From the NCBI RefSeq assembly GCF_004358445.1, contig NZ_CP037951.1, forward strand, positions 607,501 through 671,500: DNA of 64,000 nucleotides, read 5' to 3'. The notes under the pieces are model-generated. The model searched no databases. It saw only the letters and a program-made list of their open reading frames with translations, and was not told the origin of the DNA. Positions within the stretch are counted from its first letter, which is position 1, and every line of letters starts with the position of its first letter. The translations under genes and the position numbers were made by a program. Shown here piece by piece: positions 23,808 to 31,521 of the stretch. This stretch comes from Parashewanella tropica. Its GTDB lineage: Bacteria; Pseudomonadota; Gammaproteobacteria; Enterobacterales; Shewanellaceae.

Positions 23808-25037
23808 GTGATTTCATGCAGTACGAGCTTGATGACCGTTTTCGATTATCTTTTTCCCGAGAAAACTCAGCCAGTACTAACTCAGGCCCAAATAGATAAT
23901 TTCCCAATTGGGTTTGAGGCTGAAATTGGTATTGTCCGAGATCTTTGTTGTGATGATGGTGCAAGATTCGACGCTATTGATAATGATTCATTACGGAATA
24001 TGTCCTTAGGATTAAGGTTTGCAGGTATCTCAACGCACAGTGAAGCGAAAGAGCTTAATATTCAGGTCATCCCTCCTGCACCTATTTTTCACATCTGGGT
24101 TTCCTTGCGCGGGGCATCATTCTTTGATGGTTATAATAACCCTCGATGCTTAGATTACGTATCACGCATAACGAAACAAGCAGACTTTTTATTACAACAT
24201 GATATTCCTTTATTTCTTGTTTATACCGAAAAGAATATGTCTGATGTTCAGAAACAAAAAATGGCTTCATTGTTTACCGAACATCCAAATATTATGGTGT
24301 TGAGTGTAGAAAAACACTTGTCTCACTTACCCATGGTTTTTTCTTATTCTGAAGAATGCAGACCTAAAGACGATTATGGTGAAACGTTTGATATTGACGG
24401 TTTGAGATTGTCTGTTTTGATGGATTATCCCGAAGTGTTTGATGTTCTCGAAAAAGAAGCTATCAAGCAAGAAAAATTAGACTTTGTTTCAAGATTAAAA
24501 GCGCTTGGAAAACAAAGCCTAATTTATCACGATATTGACGATCAGTTCTTACAGCGTCCCCCATTTTTTCTGGCTGTAAAAGGAGTTATGGGAGCGACAC
24601 TACTTAGTCGTGAAGCATTTGTTGAATTTCAACAACAGGTAAAGGAACTAAGGGATTATAATATACCAAGCTTTACGTATACTCGTCCCTCAGTAGAGGG
24701 ATCCGTTTTGACTGCTGATGAGATCGCAATATTCCAAAAACAACGAGCTCAACTAATCCTTGATATGTTTAATAGTCATTTTGACGATGAGCTTTTTAGC
24801 TTCGTACCGACGAGAAACCTTTACGCTATAAATCACCCTGCTGTTATGAAAATAAGATCAAAACTGACTGATACTCAGTATCAAAAACTGAGATCCAGTC
24901 AGCATGATTATCACACTTTCACACAACTTGTTTATCAACCTTATCCTTCAGACGACCTGCAAATAAAAGCTCGTAAGTTAGACTTTATGCAACAGCTGAA
25001 TTATACATTCTTTGGACGCGATAACAGTTGGCATTAA
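23808..25037 (+). CDS. Orphan protein, possible toxin-type glycosyltransferase
   Basis: This 409-residue protein starts with GTG 23808, preceded by AGGAAGG at 9 nt; an inner ATG (23832) lacks a site. No signal peptide is convincing. Three features recall GT-A-fold glycosyltransferases of the large clostridial toxin or DXD-sugar type: FHIW at 94-97 (a Trp stacks on the nucleotide in those enzymes), an Arg-then-IYHDID stretch at 229-244 that could be the DXD metal site, and a C-terminal NSWH (406-409). The match is by eye and weak; the residues around the DXD do not fully fit. It ends in a 4-bp stop overlap with prpF and lies next to the ankyrin genes. It could equally be an unrelated orphan. 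Confidence 0.6.
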   Translation: MISCSTSLMTVFDYLFPEKTQPVLTQAQIDNFPIGFEAEIGIVRDLCCDDGARFDAIDNDSLRNMSLGLRFAGISTHSEAKELNIQVIPPAPIFHIWVSLRGASFFDGYNNPRCLDYVSRITKQADFLLQHDIPLFLVYTEKNMSDVQKQKMASLFTEHPNIMVLSVEKHLSHLPMVFSYSEECRPKDDYGETFDIDGLRLSVLMDYPEVFDVLEKEAIKQEKLDFVSRLKALGKQSLIYHDIDDQFLQRPPFFLAVKGVMGATLLSREAFVEFQQQVKELRDYNIPSFTYTRPSVEGSVLTADEIAIFQKQRAQLILDMFNSHFDDELFSFVPTRNLYAINHPAVMKIRSKLTDTQYQKLRSSQHDYHTFTQLVYQPYPSDDLQIKARKLDFMQQLNYTFFGRDNSWH

Positions 25038-26203
25038 TGAAGAACTCTTACCCAACCTTCCATCAAAATCCGAGCACTACGGCTCATAATCGCTTCTTCC
25101 ACTTTCCAAACATCACCATTGAAACTCGCTGCTGCACCAACTTTTAATGTACCAGATGGGTGACCAAAACGAACACTATCTCGTTGTCCGCCACCTGCGG
25201 CTTGGTTAACTAAAGTGCCGGGAATCGCAGCTGCAGTTCCAATCGCAACAGCGGCCGTACCCATCATCGCATGGTGAAGTTTGCCCATAGATAAGGCGCG
25301 AACCAGTAGGTCGATATCCTCAGTTAAAATATTCTTTCCGCTAGAGGCTTTATAACTTCTTGGCTCAGCAACAAAAGCAATCTTTGGTGTGTGCTGACGT
25401 TGTTCGGCCTCTTTGATATCAGAAATCAATCCCATCTTCACTGCGCCATGAGCACGTAAGGACTCGAATTTTGCTAGTACTTCGACATCGTTATTGATGT
25501 CATCTTGCAGCTCGGTGCCTGTATAACCAATATCTGCCGCATTGACAAAAATCGTTGGGATACCCGCGTTGATCATCGTAGCGCTAATAGAGCCAAACTC
25601 AGGAGTGGTAAGAACATCCACCAGATTACCTGTTGGAAATAAACTCTCTGACTCATCAACAGGCTTAACAAATGAAAGCTCAATTTCGGCGGCAGGGAAG
25701 GTCACACCATCGAGTTCAAAATCACCCGTTTCTTGAACTTCACCGTTGGTCATTGGCACTTTAGCGATAATGGTTTTACCAATGTTCTGTTGCCAAATCT
25801 TAACCGTAGCAATGCCGTTTTCAGGGAGTTTTTCTTTAGCCACATAACCACTATGAATAGCAAAGGCACCAACGGCTGATGATAAGTTTCCACAGTTGCC
25901 ACTCCAGTCGACAAAGGCTTTATCGATCGCCACTTGCCCGAATAGATAATTAATATCGTGTTCACCATCAGTGGCGGGGGAGACGATTACGGTTTTACTG
26001 GTGCTTGATGTTGCACCACCCATACCATCAACTTGTTTGGCATAAGGATCAGGACTTCCGATCACTCTGAGTAGTAATCGATCTCTATCTTCACCCGCTT
26101 GTTGAGCGGCTTGAGGTAAGTCTTCTAAGCGAAAGAAAACCCCTTTACTGGTGCCACCACGCATATAAGTGGCAGGTACTTTAATTTGTGGAGCAAATGT
26201 CAT
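25034..26203 (-). CDS. prpF: 2-methylaconitate isomerase PrpF
   Basis: This 389-residue cytoplasmic isomerase converts trans- to cis-2-methylaconitate, which AcnD-type dehydratases require in the 2-methylcitrate cycle. It matches the PrpF family throughout: MRGGTSKGVFFRLEDLP near the start, the substrate-loop GNCGNLSSAVGAFAI around 100-115, and HHAMMGTAAVAIGTAAAIPGT-type sequence near 320-340. It has the diaminopimelate-epimerase-like double fold. It is the last gene of the prp operon, separated from acnD by 351 bp of structured repeats. Its stop overlaps the stop of the convergent orphan gene. Confidence 0.95.
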   Translation of the reverse strand: MTFAPQIKVPATYMRGGTSKGVFFRLEDLPQAAQQAGEDRDRLLLRVIGSPDPYAKQVDGMGGATSSTSKTVIVSPATDGEHDINYLFGQVAIDKAFVDWSGNCGNLSSAVGAFAIHSGYVAKEKLPENGIATVKIWQQNIGKTIIAKVPMTNGEVQETGDFELDGVTFPAAEIELSFVKPVDESESLFPTGNLVDVLTTPEFGSISATMINAGIPTIFVNAADIGYTGTELQDDINNDVEVLAKFESLRAHGAVKMGLISDIKEAEQRQHTPKIAFVAEPRSYKASSGKNILTEDIDLLVRALSMGKLHHAMMGTAAVAIGTAAAIPGTLVNQAAGGGQRDSVRFGHPSGTLKVGAAASFNGDVWKVEEAIMSRSARILMEGWVRVLH

Positions 26204-26285
26204 GTTAATTTACCCTTGGCATTCATTGATAATGACTGAGTAAATCAAGAATGAATGCAACTATTGATTTTTTCAGTATTTCTAC

Positions 26286-26382
26286 AAAAGTAAAAGTGCG
26301 CACGACAACAGAAGCGTACGTCCATGTACTGACGACCGTTACATCCTGTAACGGACGGTTGTCTTACCGCACTTTTACTTTT
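26286..26382. repeat. Cruciform-type repeat, copy 1 (acnD-prpF gap)
   Basis: Arms 26286-26300 and 26368-26382 are perfectly complementary (15 bp). Within them GACAAC (26304-26309) pairs with GTTGTC (26358-26363). Two small hairpins follow: GTAC/GTAC (26316-26319, 26326-26329) and CCGTTAC/GTAACGG (26336-26342, 26348-26354). The inner 60 bases (26304-26363) match 29276-29335 at 52 positions, while the outer arms are unrelated in sequence but paired in both. The short minus-strand frame over this region (26245-26466) looks like a by-product of the repeat rather than a gene. Confidence 0.85.
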
Positions 26383-26430
26383 ATCTATATCACTGGCAGT
26401 TTTAAGTATTAGTTGTTCAGTACACAGTTG

Positions 26431-26529
26431 AAAGCAGATGATGAATAAGCTGACCATCCGAGGCATGGATGCCGAGGTTGAGCGCCCATGGATGGGTTCA
26501 CAGCGTGTCAGCGTTTCATTGTCTGCTTT
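26431..26529. repeat. Second type of branched repeat in the acnD-prpF gap
   Basis: Arms 26431-26454 and 26507-26529 pair with two G-U wobbles and a small asymmetric loop (AAAGCAGA with TCTGCTTT at the base, GCTGAC with GTCAGC at the top). Between them lie two short hairpins, GGCATGGATGCC (26462-26473) and CCCATGGATGGG (26485-26496). The plan, one long stem enclosing two small hairpins, is that of the neighbouring repeat, but the sequence differs. Confidence 0.75.
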
Positions 26530-26554
26530 TTCTCGTCTAAATCGACTTAACTAA

Positions 26555-29143
26555 CTAAGCATTTGCTTCTAAAAAATCTTGAGCAAAGCGTTGCAGTACA
26601 CCACCTGCACTGTAGACCGAGACCTCTTCTGCGGTATCTAAACGACAAGTTACAGGGACTGTGACCGTTTCACCATTTCTGCGAGTGATGTGTAACATCA
26701 ACTCTGCGCGAGGTGCTGGGGTGCCTTCAACATCGTACATTTCACTACCATCAAGTTCTAAGACTTTACGGTTCATGCCTTGATGGAATTCCAATGGCAG
26801 TACGCCCATTCCCACTAAGTTGGTACGGTGGATACGCTCAAATCCTTCGGCAACGATCGCTTCAACACCTGCTAAACGAACACCTTTTGCCGCCCAGTCA
26901 CGGGATGAGCCTTGACCGTAATCCGCACCCGCTACGATGATCAGGTTTTGTCGGCGATCCATATAAGTTTCAATCGCTTCCCACATACGGGTTTGCTGAC
27001 CTTCTGGTTCGATACGAGCCAGCGATCCTTGAATGATCTCGCCTTTATCATCAAGACACATTTCATTTAGAAGCTTAGGGTTAGCAAAGGTCGCACGCTG
27101 AGCGGTCAAGTGATCACCACGGTGGGTCGCATAAGAGTTAAAGTCCTCTTCTGGCAGGCCCATGTGGGCTAGGTACTCACCAGCGGCACTACTGGCAAGG
27201 ATCGCATTTGATGGTGACAGGTGATCGGTGGTGATGTTGTCACCCAATACCGCAAGTGGGCGCATACCTTTTAAGGTACGTTCACCTGCCAATGCGCCTT
27301 CCCAGTATGGAGGACGACGAATGTAAGTGGATTGTGGACGCCAGTCGTACAGTGGACTTGATGCTTGCTCGGCTTCACCTAAGTCAAACATCTTGACGTA
27401 GATTTGCTTGAACTGCTCAGGTTTCACAGCACTGCCTACAACCGCATCGATCTCTTCATCGCTCGGCCATAAATCTTTTAGCGTGATCGGATTACCGTGT
27501 TGATCATGCCCTAATACATCTTGCTCAATATCAAAACGAATCGTACCAGCAATGGCGTAGGCGATTACGAGTGGAGGAGACGCTAAGAAAGCTTGCTTTG
27601 CATATGGGTGAATACGACCATCGAAGTTTCGGTTACCTGAAAGTACCGCAGTTGAATACAGATCGCGATCGATGATTTCTTGTTGGATTTTCGGATCAAG
27701 TGCGCCACTCATGCCGTTACAAGTGGTACAAGCATAGCCAACGATACCAAAGCCAAGCTTTTCCAACTCCGGTAATAAACCTGCTTCTTCAAGATACAGC
27801 TTGGCCACTTTTGAACCCGGAGCAAAAGACGTTTTCACCCAAGGTTTGCGCATTAATCCAAGCTCATTGGCTTTTTTGGCTAGCAAAGCTGCGGCAACCA
27901 CGTTACGAGGATTCGACGTGTTAGTACAAGAGGTAATAGCTGCGATGATCACTGCACCGTCAGGCATTAAATCACCTTCTTGTTTCCATTCACTCGCAAT
28001 ACCACGATCGGCAAGATCTGAGGTTGGTAAACGACGATGCGGATTTGATGGGCCAGCCATGTTGCGACCAACGCTAGATAAATCAAACTCAAGTACACGT
28101 TCGTATTGAGCTTCAACCATATCGTCAGCCCATAAACCCGTGGTTTTAGCGTAGTGTTCAACGAGAGCAACTTGCTCTGGTTCACGACCTGTGAGCCTTA
28201 GATAATCAATGGTTTGTTCATCAATGTAGAACATGCCCGCAGAAGCACCGAATTCTGGTGTCATGTTAGAAATCGTGGCTCTGTCACCAATAGCTAAAGA
28301 GCGAGCGCCTTCACCAAAGAATTCAAGATAAGCGGAGACTACGCGTTGCTCACGTAAGAATTCAGTCAATGCTAATACAATATCAGTAGCAGTAATGCCC
28401 GGTTGACGTTGACCAACGAGTTTTACACCGACAATATCAGGCAGACGCATCATAGATGGGCGACCTAACATCACGGTTTCTGCTTCAAGACCACCAACAC
28501 CTAATGCAATAACACCTAAGGCATCAACGTGTGGAGTGTGACTGTCAGTACCTACGCAAGTATCTGGGAACGCAACACCGTCACGCGCTTGAATAACAGG
28601 TGACATCTTTTCAAGATTGATTTGATGCATGATGCCGTTGCCAGCTGGGATCACATCCACATTTTTAAAGGCGGTTTTTGTCCATTCGATAAAATGAAAG
28701 CGATCTTCGTTACGTCTGTCTTCAATAGCGCGGTTTTTATCAAAGGCTTCTGGATCAAAGCCCGGCGCTTCAACAGCCAAAGAGTGATCAACAATCAGTT
28801 GGGTTGGAACAACAGGGTTAACTAACGCAGGGTCACCACCCTTTTCGGCAATGGCATCACGTAAGCCTGCTAAATCAACTAATGCTGTTTGACCAAGAAT
28901 GTCGTGGCAAACCACACGAGCCGGATACCAAGGAAAGTCTAAATCTTGTTTGCGCTCGATAAGTTGGTTTAGGGAATCAGTTAGGGTTTCAGGACTACAG
29001 CGGCGGACTAATTGTTCTGCCAGAATTTTAGAGGTGTAAGGTAGGTGCTTGTAACTATCAGGCTTAATGGCATTAACCGCAGCTTGAGTATCAAAGTAAT
29101 CGAGCTGAGTACCAGCAAGCGCTTTACGGTATTGAGAATTCAT
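26555..29143 (-). CDS. acnD: Fe/S-dependent 2-methylcitrate dehydratase AcnD
   Basis: This 862-residue aconitase-family enzyme dehydrates 2-methylcitrate, working together with PrpF, and replaces PrpD in many proteobacteria. Cluster-binding cysteines are visible in AITSCTNTSNP and in GYACTTCNGMSG. The swivel domain near the C-terminus contains GADYGQGSSRDWAAKGVRL. The frame extends to 29206, but ATG 29143 (MNSQYRKAL) has GGAAAG just upstream and matches the family start. The gene is flanked on both sides by cruciform-type repeats. It belongs to the gntR-prpB-prpC-acnD-prpF operon. Confidence 0.95.
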   Translation of the reverse strand: MNSQYRKALAGTQLDYFDTQAAVNAIKPDSYKHLPYTSKILAEQLVRRCSPETLTDSLNQLIERKQDLDFPWYPARVVCHDILGQTALVDLAGLRDAIAEKGGDPALVNPVVPTQLIVDHSLAVEAPGFDPEAFDKNRAIEDRRNEDRFHFIEWTKTAFKNVDVIPAGNGIMHQINLEKMSPVIQARDGVAFPDTCVGTDSHTPHVDALGVIALGVGGLEAETVMLGRPSMMRLPDIVGVKLVGQRQPGITATDIVLALTEFLREQRVVSAYLEFFGEGARSLAIGDRATISNMTPEFGASAGMFYIDEQTIDYLRLTGREPEQVALVEHYAKTTGLWADDMVEAQYERVLEFDLSSVGRNMAGPSNPHRRLPTSDLADRGIASEWKQEGDLMPDGAVIIAAITSCTNTSNPRNVVAAALLAKKANELGLMRKPWVKTSFAPGSKVAKLYLEEAGLLPELEKLGFGIVGYACTTCNGMSGALDPKIQQEIIDRDLYSTAVLSGNRNFDGRIHPYAKQAFLASPPLVIAYAIAGTIRFDIEQDVLGHDQHGNPITLKDLWPSDEEIDAVVGSAVKPEQFKQIYVKMFDLGEAEQASSPLYDWRPQSTYIRRPPYWEGALAGERTLKGMRPLAVLGDNITTDHLSPSNAILASSAAGEYLAHMGLPEEDFNSYATHRGDHLTAQRATFANPKLLNEMCLDDKGEIIQGSLARIEPEGQQTRMWEAIETYMDRRQNLIIVAGADYGQGSSRDWAAKGVRLAGVEAIVAEGFERIHRTNLVGMGVLPLEFHQGMNRKVLELDGSEMYDVEGTPAPRAELMLHITRRNGETVTVPVTCRLDTAEEVSVYSAGGVLQRFAQDFLEANA

Positions 29144-29257
29144 AGATCTTTCCACAACATTGCTAAAAGTGTGGCTGGTCAGACACGGGAAACATCTGCC
29201 AGCCACGGGGTTGGAACGCGGTGTTAACTCATTGGTGAATTATTTTTAGTTTTAACA

Positions 29258-29354
29258 AGGAGCAATAATGTGAACGTCAACAGAAGCGCACATCCATGTG
29301 CTGACGACCGTGACGTCCTGTCACGGACGGTTGCCTTATCACACTATTGCTCCT
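29258..29354. repeat. Cruciform-type repeat, copy 2 (prpC-acnD gap)
   Basis: Arms 29258-29273 and 29339-29354 pair at 15 of 16 positions; the odd pair becomes G-U if the minus (operon) strand is transcribed. Inside are GTCAAC/GTTGCC (29276-29281, 29330-29335, one mismatch), GCAC/GTGC (29288-29291, 29298-29301) and CCGTGAC/GTCACGG (29308-29314, 29320-29326). Compared with copy 1, both small hairpins differ by paired changes (T-A to C-G, T-A to G-C), so the structure is kept. Confidence 0.85.
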
Positions 29355-29401
29355 GTCTGTGTTATTGATGTATTTTCAATAATTCACGAATAAGGTTGTT
29401 T

Positions 29402-30526
29402 TTATCTTTCCGCGATTGGCTTAACTGCACGTGGCTCTTCACCGACATAATCCGCACTTGGGCGAATAATACGGTTATTCGAGCGTTGCTCCATTACGTG
29501 CGCTGCCCAACCTGTTAAGCGTGAACACACAAAGATTGGTGTGAACAGCTTGGTTGGAATACCCATGTAGTGGTACGCACTGGCGTGGAAGAAGTCAGCA
29601 TTACAGAAGAGTTTTTTCTGCTCCCACATGACAGATTCACATTCAACTGACACTTTGTATAAGCGATCGTCACCAAAGTCGTCCGCTAGCTTTGCAGACC
29701 AGCCTTTAATGATGGCGTTGCGAGGATCGGATTCGCGATAGATGGCATGACCAAAGCCCATGATTTTTTCTTTGCGCTCAAGCATGCCCATTAGTGTGTC
29801 ACGGGCGTGTTGCTCGTCTTTCAGATCTTCAATTAGCTCCATTGCGGCTTCGTTGGCACCACCATGCAGTGGACCACGTAATGAGCCAATCGCACCAGTG
29901 ATACAAGAGTGCATATCAGAAAGGGTTGAGGCACATACACGAGCGGTAAAGGTTGATGCATTAAACTCATGCTCAGCGTAAAGGATCAATGACGAATCCA
30001 TTACTTTTGCGTGTAGATCGCTTGGCTTTTTACCATGCAATAGATGTAAGAAATGCGCGCCGATATGGTCATCATCGGTTTCGGTTTCAATGCGAACACC
30101 GTCGTGGCTGTAGCGGTACCAGTAACAAATGATAGATGGGAATGCAGCGAGTAAACGGTCGGCTACATCGCCTTGCTCGTCAAAGCTGTTCTCAATTTCT
30201 AGGTTACCGAGCATGGAGCAGCCTGTACGCATTACATCCATTGGGTGTGCAGATGCTGGAATACGCTCTAATACTTCTTTTAATGCTTGAGGTAAGCCAC
30301 GATTTGCTTTGATTTTAGCTCGATATTCATCTAACTGAGCTTGATTAGGTAACTCGCCTTTTAAAATAAGGTACGCGACTTCTTCAAAGCTGACGTTGTC
30401 AGCCAAATCTTTTAAGTCGTAACCACGGTAGGTTAAGCCTGAGCCTGATTTTCCAACTGTACTGAGTGCTGTTTCACCAGCGCTTTGACCGCGAAGTCCT
30501 GCGCCGCCTAGTTTTTTATCTACCAT
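29402..30526 (-). CDS. prpC: 2-methylcitrate synthase PrpC
   Basis: This 374-residue citrate-synthase-fold enzyme condenses propionyl-CoA with oxaloacetate. Family landmarks are the N-terminal SGLTYRGYDLKDLA, the active-site stretch GSLRGPLHGGANEAAM, and KIMGFGHAIYRESDPRN with the catalytic His. The length and prp context separate it from GltA, which is about 430 residues with a longer N-terminus. It lies between prpB (116 bp upstream) and acnD (258 bp downstream). Both gaps contain hairpins, so the segments of the mRNA may be processed or attenuated separately. Confidence 0.95.
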   Translation of the reverse strand: MVDKKLGGAGLRGQSAGETALSTVGKSGSGLTYRGYDLKDLADNVSFEEVAYLILKGELPNQAQLDEYRAKIKANRGLPQALKEVLERIPASAHPMDVMRTGCSMLGNLEIENSFDEQGDVADRLLAAFPSIICYWYRYSHDGVRIETETDDDHIGAHFLHLLHGKKPSDLHAKVMDSSLILYAEHEFNASTFTARVCASTLSDMHSCITGAIGSLRGPLHGGANEAAMELIEDLKDEQHARDTLMGMLERKEKIMGFGHAIYRESDPRNAIIKGWSAKLADDFGDDRLYKVSVECESVMWEQKKLFCNADFFHASAYHYMGIPTKLFTPIFVCSRLTGWAAHVMEQRSNNRIIRPSADYVGEEPRAVKPIAER

Positions 30527-30642: not shown

Positions 30643-31521
30643 TTACTTATCTGAACTGAACAGTTCATCCAATTTATTTTCAAAGTCGTGATAACCAAGG
30701 TGCTCGTATAAGTCAGCACGCGTTTGCATCGTGTCGACCACATTGCGCTGATGACCATCATTCATCAGTGCTTGCATCACGTTTAATGCGGCTTGGTTTG
30801 CGGCGCGGAAGGTACTAAGTGGATAAAGCACCATATCTGCACCCGCTTCGGCTAACTCTTCTTTATTGAACAGTTGTGTCTTACCAAACTCTGTCATGTT
30901 CGCTAGAATCGGGGCATTAACCGCTGCTTTAAATTCACGATAATGATCAAGCTCAGTGAGTGCTTCAGCAAAAATCATGTCAGCGCCCGCTTCTAAATAG
31001 GCTTGTGCGCGCTCGATACCTGATTCAAGTCCTTCAACCGCTACCGCATCGGTACGAGCCATGATCACAAAGTTTTCGTCAGTACGAGCATCAACCGCGG
31101 CTTTAATGCGATCCACCATTTCCTCTGTGCTCACAACGGCTTTGTTTGGACGATGACCACAACGTTTTTGTGCCACTTGATCTTCCATGTGAACTGCTGC
31201 AACACCGGCTTTTTCGAACTCTTTGATGGTACGAGCAATGTTAAATGCGCCGCCCCAACCCGTATCAATATCGACAAGCAAAGGTAAGTCAGTTGCTGAA
31301 GTAATACGGCTGGCGTCGGTTACCACATCGTTCATTGAAGTCATACCTAAATCAGGCAGACCGTAAGAAGCGTTAGCCACACCTGCGCCAGAAAGGTACA
31401 AGGCTTTAAAGCCTGTGTGCTCAGCCATTAAGGCAAAGTAGGCGTTGGTGGTTCCTACAATTTGTAGAGGGTTTGAATTAGCTAAGGCATGACGAAAACG
31501 GAATCCGGCACTGGTCTTCAT
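30643..31521 (-). CDS. prpB: 2-methylisocitrate lyase PrpB
   Basis: This 292-residue lyase splits 2-methylisocitrate into pyruvate and succinate, the last step of the cycle. It belongs to the isocitrate lyase/PEP mutase family, with [13 protein letters not shown] (metal-binding Asp) and the signature [11 protein letters not shown] holding the catalytic Cys. Its ATG overlaps the TGA of the upstream regulator gene by 4 bp (ATGA), so translation is coupled to the repressor. It is the first catabolic gene of the operon. Confidence 0.95.

Follow-up and report, generated by a model that had tools for sequence, protein, structure and literature searches.

Two acnD-flanking repeats of Parashewanella tropica belong to a dispersed intergenic family with a one-strand pairing constraint and loops of CsrA-site form

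Our analysis of a 64,000-nucleotide (nt) stretch of the Parashewanella tropica genome (RefSeq contig NZ_CP037951.1, positions 607,501 to 671,500; here called the window) concerned two 97-bp palindromic repeats that flank the propionate-breakdown gene acnD in an operon of prpB, prpC, acnD and prpF. Both repeats turned out to be members of a dispersed family whose fold is constrained on one particular strand. This strand carries two hairpins with GGA in their loops and is referred to below as the GGA strand. The family and the superfamily around it, the strand-specific pairing constraint, the conservation of the loops, and the gain and loss of copies were all computed directly from the genomes. 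We put at about 0.64 the probability that these are mobile intergenic repeats related to the YPAL/RU-2 repeats of Yersinia, whose GGA strand folds as RNA and probably binds CsrA.

Copy 1 (26286-26382) lies in the acnD-prpF gap and copy 2 (29258-29354) in the prpC-acnD gap; both were aligned in the + orientation, and all four operon genes are on the - strand. A sequence-only reading of the window had described two copies at these positions sharing a 60-base core with 52 identities, which direct comparison bore out: 76 of 97 positions agree overall and 52 of 60 in columns 19-78. The next best + strand site for copy 1 reached 43/97, and shuffling the window three times in a simple way gave 43-46. 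The same reading had placed four of the eight core differences in stems, as matched pairs, and two in loops, and this is where we found them (T-A to C-G at columns 32/43, T-A to G-C at columns 55/65, and loop columns 35 and 58); columns 20/77 are A-T in copy 1 and T-C in copy 2. Its view of the outer arms, taken to be complementary within each copy yet unrelated in sequence, was right in the first part only. The arms of copy 1 (26286-26301 and 26367-26382, columns 1-16 and 82-97) pair at 15 of 16 positions, giving 15 bp of 100% complementarity, and the 16-nt arms of copy 2 (29258-29273 and 29339-29354) form an inverted repeat that is 94% complementary. However, 9/15 and 10/15 arm positions are identical between the copies, five matched pair changes separate them (2/96, 3/95, 6/92, 9/89 and 14/84), and the other family copies reveal a common outer-arm consensus.

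The predicted fold consists of the 16-bp outer stem P1, an inner stem, and hairpins A (columns 31-44) and B (columns 48-72). On the - strand, copy 1 forms hairpin A at 26316-26329 (loop C-AUGGAC-G) and hairpin B at 26333-26357 (loop CAGGAUG), and copy 2 forms them at 29288-29301 (C-AUGGAU-G) and 29305-29329 (CAGGACG). Compared with 200 dinucleotide shuffles, folding yielded z scores of -6.1 (copy 1) and -5.8 (copy 2) on the + strand and of -5.9 and -5.6 on the - strand. Outer pair 11/87 of copy 2 is A-C on + and G-U on -, so that the odd pair remarked upon earlier is indeed G-U only on the operon strand, and the accompanying suggestion of a folded operon strand agrees with both window copies.

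To place the repeats, the window genome (G000) was compared with four other genomes of the genus Parashewanella, family Shewanellaceae (G001 to G004). A BLAST-type DNA search of G000 with copy 1 gave at least 40 matches (40 of 70 candidates scored). A covariance model, R1, was built on the + reading, that is, on the non-GGA strand, from copy 2 plus the 30 top matches of this search; a second model, R2, was built from ten diverged relatives ("cousins") of ten genomes and models the GGA strand. With 150 of 1240 candidates scored, R1 gave 73 matches at E<=1e-5 in G000, one of which (3139088) fits the cousin type better. At E<=0.001 it gave 31 matches in G001 and none in G002, G003 or G004. In a collection of named genomes, the core pattern matched Parashewanella curva C51 only, in 16 stretches. 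According to a simple rule based on open reading frames (ORFs), 55 of 71 copies in G000 lie between codirectional genes, 12 between convergent and 3 between divergent genes, with 1 undetermined; from their translations, we take the host gaps to include an oleABCD-like set, rbfA-infB, truB-rpsO and dnaN-recF.

Selection on the structure is supported by covariation among the 31 copies underlying R1, where cells count copies and not independent events. Of these cells, 92.9% are paired, and double changes occur in 22 of 37 pairs. The 98 double-changed cells compare with 28.4 in shuffles, none of 500 shuffles reached as many, and the number dropped to 5-11 when partner columns were slid by 1-3. The genome-wide covariance search that the sequence-only reading had proposed has thus produced many further copies, paired changes among them, and its claim of selection for a structure stands; its notion of a feature of a metabolic operon does not, given a dispersed repeat with 73 matches.

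The pairing constraint acts on one strand, independently of the direction of the host genes. Among 66 of 69 G000 copies (3 of other length being left out), the P1 wobbles on the GGA strand comprise 70 G-U and only 4 A-C cells, next to 933 Watson-Crick and 49 other cells. Since R1 was built on the opposite strand, any search bias runs against this result. Relative to the consensus arm, paired double changes number 136; of the single changes, 65 produce G-U on the GGA strand, 4 produce the other wobble and 30 are of other kinds, and 24 further cells fall outside these classes. When 66 of the 71 placed copies were grouped by host genes, the G-U to A-C ratio was 33:3 for copies whose GGA strand is antisense to both neighbours, 20:1 for sense, 15:0 for convergent and 2:0 for divergent surroundings. 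A wider set, consisting of those 79 of 83 distinct superfamily hits, nearly all from other genomes, that have at least 8 Watson-Crick pairs of 14 in the outer stem, gave 103 G-U and 26 A-C, part of which may reflect hit selection because the R2 search favours G-U over A-C. By host genes, this set divides into 37:11 (antisense), 26:4 (sense), 22:7 (convergent), 3:0 (divergent) and 15:4 (undetermined). Few copies have conserved flanks in both G000 and G001. In all stems of six such orthologous pairs, locus L158 being left out, a Watson-Crick pair faced the favoured wobble 11 times, the other wobble 3 times and a mismatch 5 times, besides 4 pair swaps and 4 other differences. The count of G-U versus A-C per strand offers a cheap sequence test for a single-strand constraint in palindromic repeats.

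The loops on the GGA strand were tallied over the 86 copies of exactly 97 nt. Hairpin A presents C-A-N-GGA-Y-G. In hairpin B, the base after CAGGA is U in 58 copies, C in 15, A in 8 and G in 2; 78 of the 86 copies have both loops intact. Conservation is 98-100% at the GGA positions and 53, 88 and 70% at positions that are loose in the CsrA consensus. Ten cousins from genus g4, which is presumably Shewanella, have 20 loops between them, all of which read C-A-N-GGA-U-G. For CsrA, systematic evolution of ligands by exponential enrichment (SELEX) gave the consensus RUACARGGAUGU, with mostly six-base loops and AC pairing to GU; the CsrB repeat is CAGGA(U/A/C)G, and a CsrA dimer bridges sites 10-63 nt apart (PMC7652899). 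In each window copy, the GGA triplets start 23 nt apart, leaving 20 nt between them, and G000 has one csrA gene. Because the loops match the SELEX consensus or CsrB repeat form, the spacing is within the bridging range and csrA is present, RNA of the GGA strand probably binds CsrA at both loops. Approximately 1 kb away from csrA, both G000 and G001 have a degenerate copy of the repeat, in corresponding positions (G000:C1:2979453-2979567 and, in G001, L176:1201-1315).

The relatives of the family extend far beyond the genus. R2 matched 127 of 152 genomes of Shewanellaceae and, in a sample of the order, 61 of 295 genomes (20 of Shewanellaceae and 41 from ten other families; 18 of 100 genera), and its copy numbers per genome are to be read as "at least". 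It recovered copy 1 (50.2 bits, E 5.5e-11) and copy 2 (49.8 bits, E 7e-11) on the GGA strand, which is the - strand and operon sense for both. In the acnD-prpF gap it also found a third, diverged cousin at 26431-26529 that the sequence-only reading had not reported (69.5 bits, E 1.8e-16). This element has two CAUGGAUG loops on the + strand, antisense to the operon, and scores 42.4 bits with R1 on the opposite (-) strand. At least two ANGGA motifs occur in 78 of 83 superfamily rows, as found by a model that was itself trained on GGA loops. Three genus-g4 genomes contain superfamily members in tandem at a spacing of about 173-178 nt (L214, L225 and L256).

The known repeat closest to this superfamily in our comparisons was YPAL/RU-2. 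Its core (letters from PMC2759123) aligned with superfamily member L239 at 60/66 identical positions (local score 102) and with L246 at 58/65 (local score 90), against a ceiling of 21 in 200 shuffles, and the core and both members share the same two GGA hairpins. The third element of the window, aligned directly, was also above its shuffles (30 vs 19). YPAL is about 168 bp long, intergenic, and mobile as judged by filled and empty sites (PMC2229807), and RNAz predicts a conserved structure for it (P 1.00; PMC2267715). Like the window family, it contains internal inverted repeats and is a mobile element dispersed between genes. The window family would be a distant branch, distinguished by weak outer terminal repeats TGTGTGAAT and the CAGGAYG loop in hairpin B. 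On these alignments, it appears as one branch of a superfamily that includes YPAL/RU-2 and to which it is linked via R2.

Rfam at curated cut-offs named nothing over the whole window, and it left the repeats unnamed in nearly all loci tried. An Rfam family of like architecture is TwoAYGGAY (RF01731), for which no match up to E 10 was obtained in 26100-29500, whereas the element occupying the acnD-prpF gap of G001 passes its cut-off (46.1 vs 43). TwoAYGGAY has two A-Y-GGA-Y hairpins within an outer stem; of the repeats described here, the third element carries two AUGGAU loops, and copies 1 and 2 carry one such hexaloop and one CAGGAYG loop. CsrA binding to TwoAYGGAY was proposed in 2014 (PMC4333381). 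The portions available of the sources, that paper among them, describe it as a structured RNA and do not mention a mobile repeat. TwoAYGGAY and the window repeats seem to share architecture and a gap, which falls short of showing common descent. One weak R1 match (E 0.0076; G000:C1:2988527-2988635) has two CATCCATG hairpins and resembles, by eye, the TwoAYGGAY-type element of G001. Superfamily member L246 resembles Ysr224 (RF02770), a Yersinia small RNA listed as temperature-responsive (PMC9029176), but the match (46.9 bits, E 7.4e-8) is below the cut-off of 70 and on the non-GGA strand. The sponge RNAs CsrB, CsrC, RsmY and RsmZ display repeated GGA hairpin loops of the same CAGGA(U/A/C)G type; however, each is one locus with many sites, while the repeats offer two sites per dispersed copy and no evident promoter. 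ERIC, REP and NEMIS-type repeats, compared by description only, are likewise dispersed and largely intergenic palindromes; REP units measure 20-40 bp (PMC3733652), and ERIC ends carry TA (PMC2229807).

Comparison of G000 with G001 revealed the turnover of copies. The dnaN-recF gap holds a copy in G000 and is empty, and about 157 bp shorter, in G001, and two more gaps differ by gain or loss. In G001, locus L154 holds a counterpart of copy 2 at the same site, and its flanks are conserved. Of 19 pairs of copies in the same gap, 7 point in opposite directions, and 10 show no alignment beyond shuffle level in either 45-nt flank (z at most 3.0). Gaps are reused, by different elements: the acnD-prpF gap contains a family copy and a cousin in G000 and a TwoAYGGAY-type element in G001, and the rbfA-infB gap contains a family copy in G000 and, in G001, a cousin (R2 E 4.5e-15). 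Allowing up to 4 mismatches in total, we found outer terminal repeats TGTGTGAAT/ATTCACACA around 18 of 100 copies, compared with 1.5 for shuffled motifs; the nine copies with at most 2 mismatches define a unit of 147-159 bp, or of 203 bp for the one 149-nt copy among them. Copy 2 may retain decayed versions of both repeats as an inverted pair, at 29232-29240 (2 mismatches to TGTGTGAAT) and 29382-29390 (2 mismatches to ATTCACACA). The 149-nt form of the repeat (147 nt in one case) was seen at G000:C1:3140014-3140162, 1561004-1561152, 3421482-3421630 and 2379362-2379508 and at G001 loci L164, L170 and L173; it has about 52 additional nt within hairpin A, including a GGA hairpin in reverse orientation.

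Taken as RNA, the GGA strand, which is the - strand for both window copies, would fold so that the outer stem closes a junction bearing two hairpins with loops of CsrA-site form, and CsrA would bind both loops. Where the GGA strand lies within a message, as around acnD, the repeats may alter processing or stability of the prp transcript, or they may soak up CsrA; a side effect on prp expression is possible. The simplest idea for the antisense copies is that they keep the signature by inheritance from active source copies. If CsrA does bind, mobile repeats would supply CsrA sites to scattered operons. A bolder version, which we hold only tentatively and consider rather doubtful, is that YPAL, these repeats and perhaps TwoAYGGAY constitute one widespread superfamily of transposable RNA modules that bind CsrA. 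As selfish elements, they would distribute paired CsrA sites among the operons of an order of bacteria, and selection on one RNA strand would maintain their shape even when they are inserted antisense. If true, this would imply either that the antisense strand is transcribed or that the elements spread by way of RNA.

Several observations weigh against the RNA and CsrA reading. In G001, the outer-stem bias is weaker (23 G-U vs 8 A-C on the GGA strand, 26 of 31 copies), and wobble changes on the wrong strand separate orthologous copies at L165 (1) and L172 (2). Over both sets, the GGA strand is sense in 42 and antisense in 61 copies (p 0.08), which speaks against a simple cis role in messenger RNA, and decay is not clearly more advanced in antisense than in sense copies (p 0.28). 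Inner stem P2 has a mean conservation of 0.98 and several junction positions reach 0.97-1.0; since conservation as strict as that of GGA extends to many core positions beyond the loops, CsrA loops are not the sole constraint. Very stable stems may disfavour CsrA (PMC7652899), and the stem of hairpin B is long. A strict hairpin finder (at least 4 bp) detected at least two GGA loops in no more than 15 of the 83 cousin hits, a single one in 62 and none in 6, since the stem of hairpin A frequently falls below that length. Aligned directly with the YPAL core, copy 1 scored 20 (shuffles up to 23) and copy 2 scored 28 (shuffles up to 25), so the link of these copies to YPAL runs through R2. Moreover, R2 misses the TwoAYGGAY-type element of G001 (L180), which made us lower the probability of the preferred reading from 0.66 to 0.64 and that of the bolder version by a similarly small step. 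Finally, a promoter scan of 72 copies with rough sigma-70 weights revealed no enrichment upstream of the GGA strand (4.04, compared with 4.34 on the other side and about 5.0 in shuffles), which argues against independent small RNA genes and leaves a promoter of the repeat's own unsupported.

The strand signature could also have arisen in DNA. The GGA strand might fold as single-stranded DNA for recombination or transposition, G-T pairs being tolerated and the loops serving as a recombinase site. Integron attC sites and REP/IS200-type elements work through folded single-stranded DNA. A signature that is independent of host gene direction and copies that come and go would both be expected of such an element, and a weak preference of the top strand for the leading side (49 of 73 copies, p 0.005) also agrees with it. 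It would not predict loops that are fixed at GGA and variable just where the CsrA consensus is degenerate. Furthermore, Y1 transposase domains (PF01797) are present in all five genomes (1 in G000, 9 in G001, 10 in G002, 1 in G003 and 18 in G004), and the repeat in only two of them; a Y1 partner is thus unsupported, as the distribution fails to track the repeat, in a search that did not extend to other recombinases. On balance, we regard a DNA fold as unlikely. We give still less credence to retrotransposition of the kind known from short interspersed elements (SINEs), in which GGA-strand transcripts of sense copies would be turned into DNA and antisense copies would inherit the RNA signature. 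It would account for an RNA-like signature in both insertion orientations, and YPAL target duplications are variable (3-26 bp), at targets that span or adjoin dyad symmetry (PMC2229807). However, the reverse transcriptase domain RVT_1 (PF00078) had no match in G000, 3 in G001 and 85 in the 5.5-Mb genome G004, in which the repeat was not found, so that a reverse-transcriptase partner is unsupported; the flanks of gained and lost copies are too diverged to read any target duplication of 3-26 bp; and the lack of clearly greater decay in antisense copies does not favour it either.

Two further explanations are less likely still. Paired changes might result from arm-to-arm copying of DNA (quasipalindrome correction by template switching), with no selection on a folded strand. 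One pair of copies in a shared gap, L158:1201-1297 and G000:C1:1649901-1649997, looks the part: the 65-nt core is identical, both flanks differ, and changes affect 10 of the 16 outer pairs, 9 being full Watson-Crick swaps, with pairing preserved save for the end pair. Slow stepwise change does not explain these outer-stem differences. Arm copying had been our first reading of the scarcity of one-sided standard-pair changes in the outer stem; it was dropped because the outer-stem mismatches are mostly A-C on the modelled strand, which is G-U on the other. A strand-symmetric process should not yield 70 G-U against 4 A-C, and we judge this explanation very improbable. That the repeats are attenuators or terminators specific to the prp operon is hardly credible. 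Such a role would fit the presence of both copies and a cousin within the prpB-prpC-acnD-prpF gaps, but dozens of copies lie elsewhere in G000, and neither R1 nor R2 found anything at the acnD loci of G002-G004; with 73 matches genome-wide and none at those loci, an operon-specific role was dropped. There is, moreover, no orientation preference and no T-run profile after either 3' end (means of 4.2 and 4.8 T in 12 nt), and the absence of a U-run following the hairpin leaves an intrinsic terminator unsupported.

Dispersed mobile repeats of this kind were already known, and the CsrA link had been proposed for TwoAYGGAY (PMC4333381); the present analysis adds a place for the family, a test for the strand, and a connection between YPAL-like repeats and CsrA-type loops. 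The open-licence literature yielded no paper joining YPAL with CsrA, TwoAYGGAY or Ysr224, and nothing on CsrA with intergenic repeats in Shewanella, on a palindromic intergenic repeat family in Shewanella, or, judged by listings, on CsrA with miniature inverted-repeat transposable elements or palindromic repeats as sponges. The comparison connects a mobile palindrome of Yersinia with repeats in 127 of 152 genomes of Shewanellaceae and in ten other families of the order.

The operon genes around the repeats were assigned with NCBIfam models, all on the - strand. The most downstream gene is prpF (25034-26203; TIGR02334, 704.2 bits, cut-off 440.55), which converges with a 409-amino-acid ORF at 23808-25037 on the + strand that had no NCBIfam match at E 1e-20. 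Between the two repeats lies acnD (26555-29206; TIGR02333, 1772.6 bits, cut-off 1419.85). Upstream of copy 2 are prpC, encoding 2-methylcitrate synthase (29402-30526; NF009006, 656.5 bits, cut-off 550), and prpB, encoding methylisocitrate lyase (30643-31521; NF008455, 523.8 bits, cut-off 353), for which TIGR02317 also scored above its cut-off.

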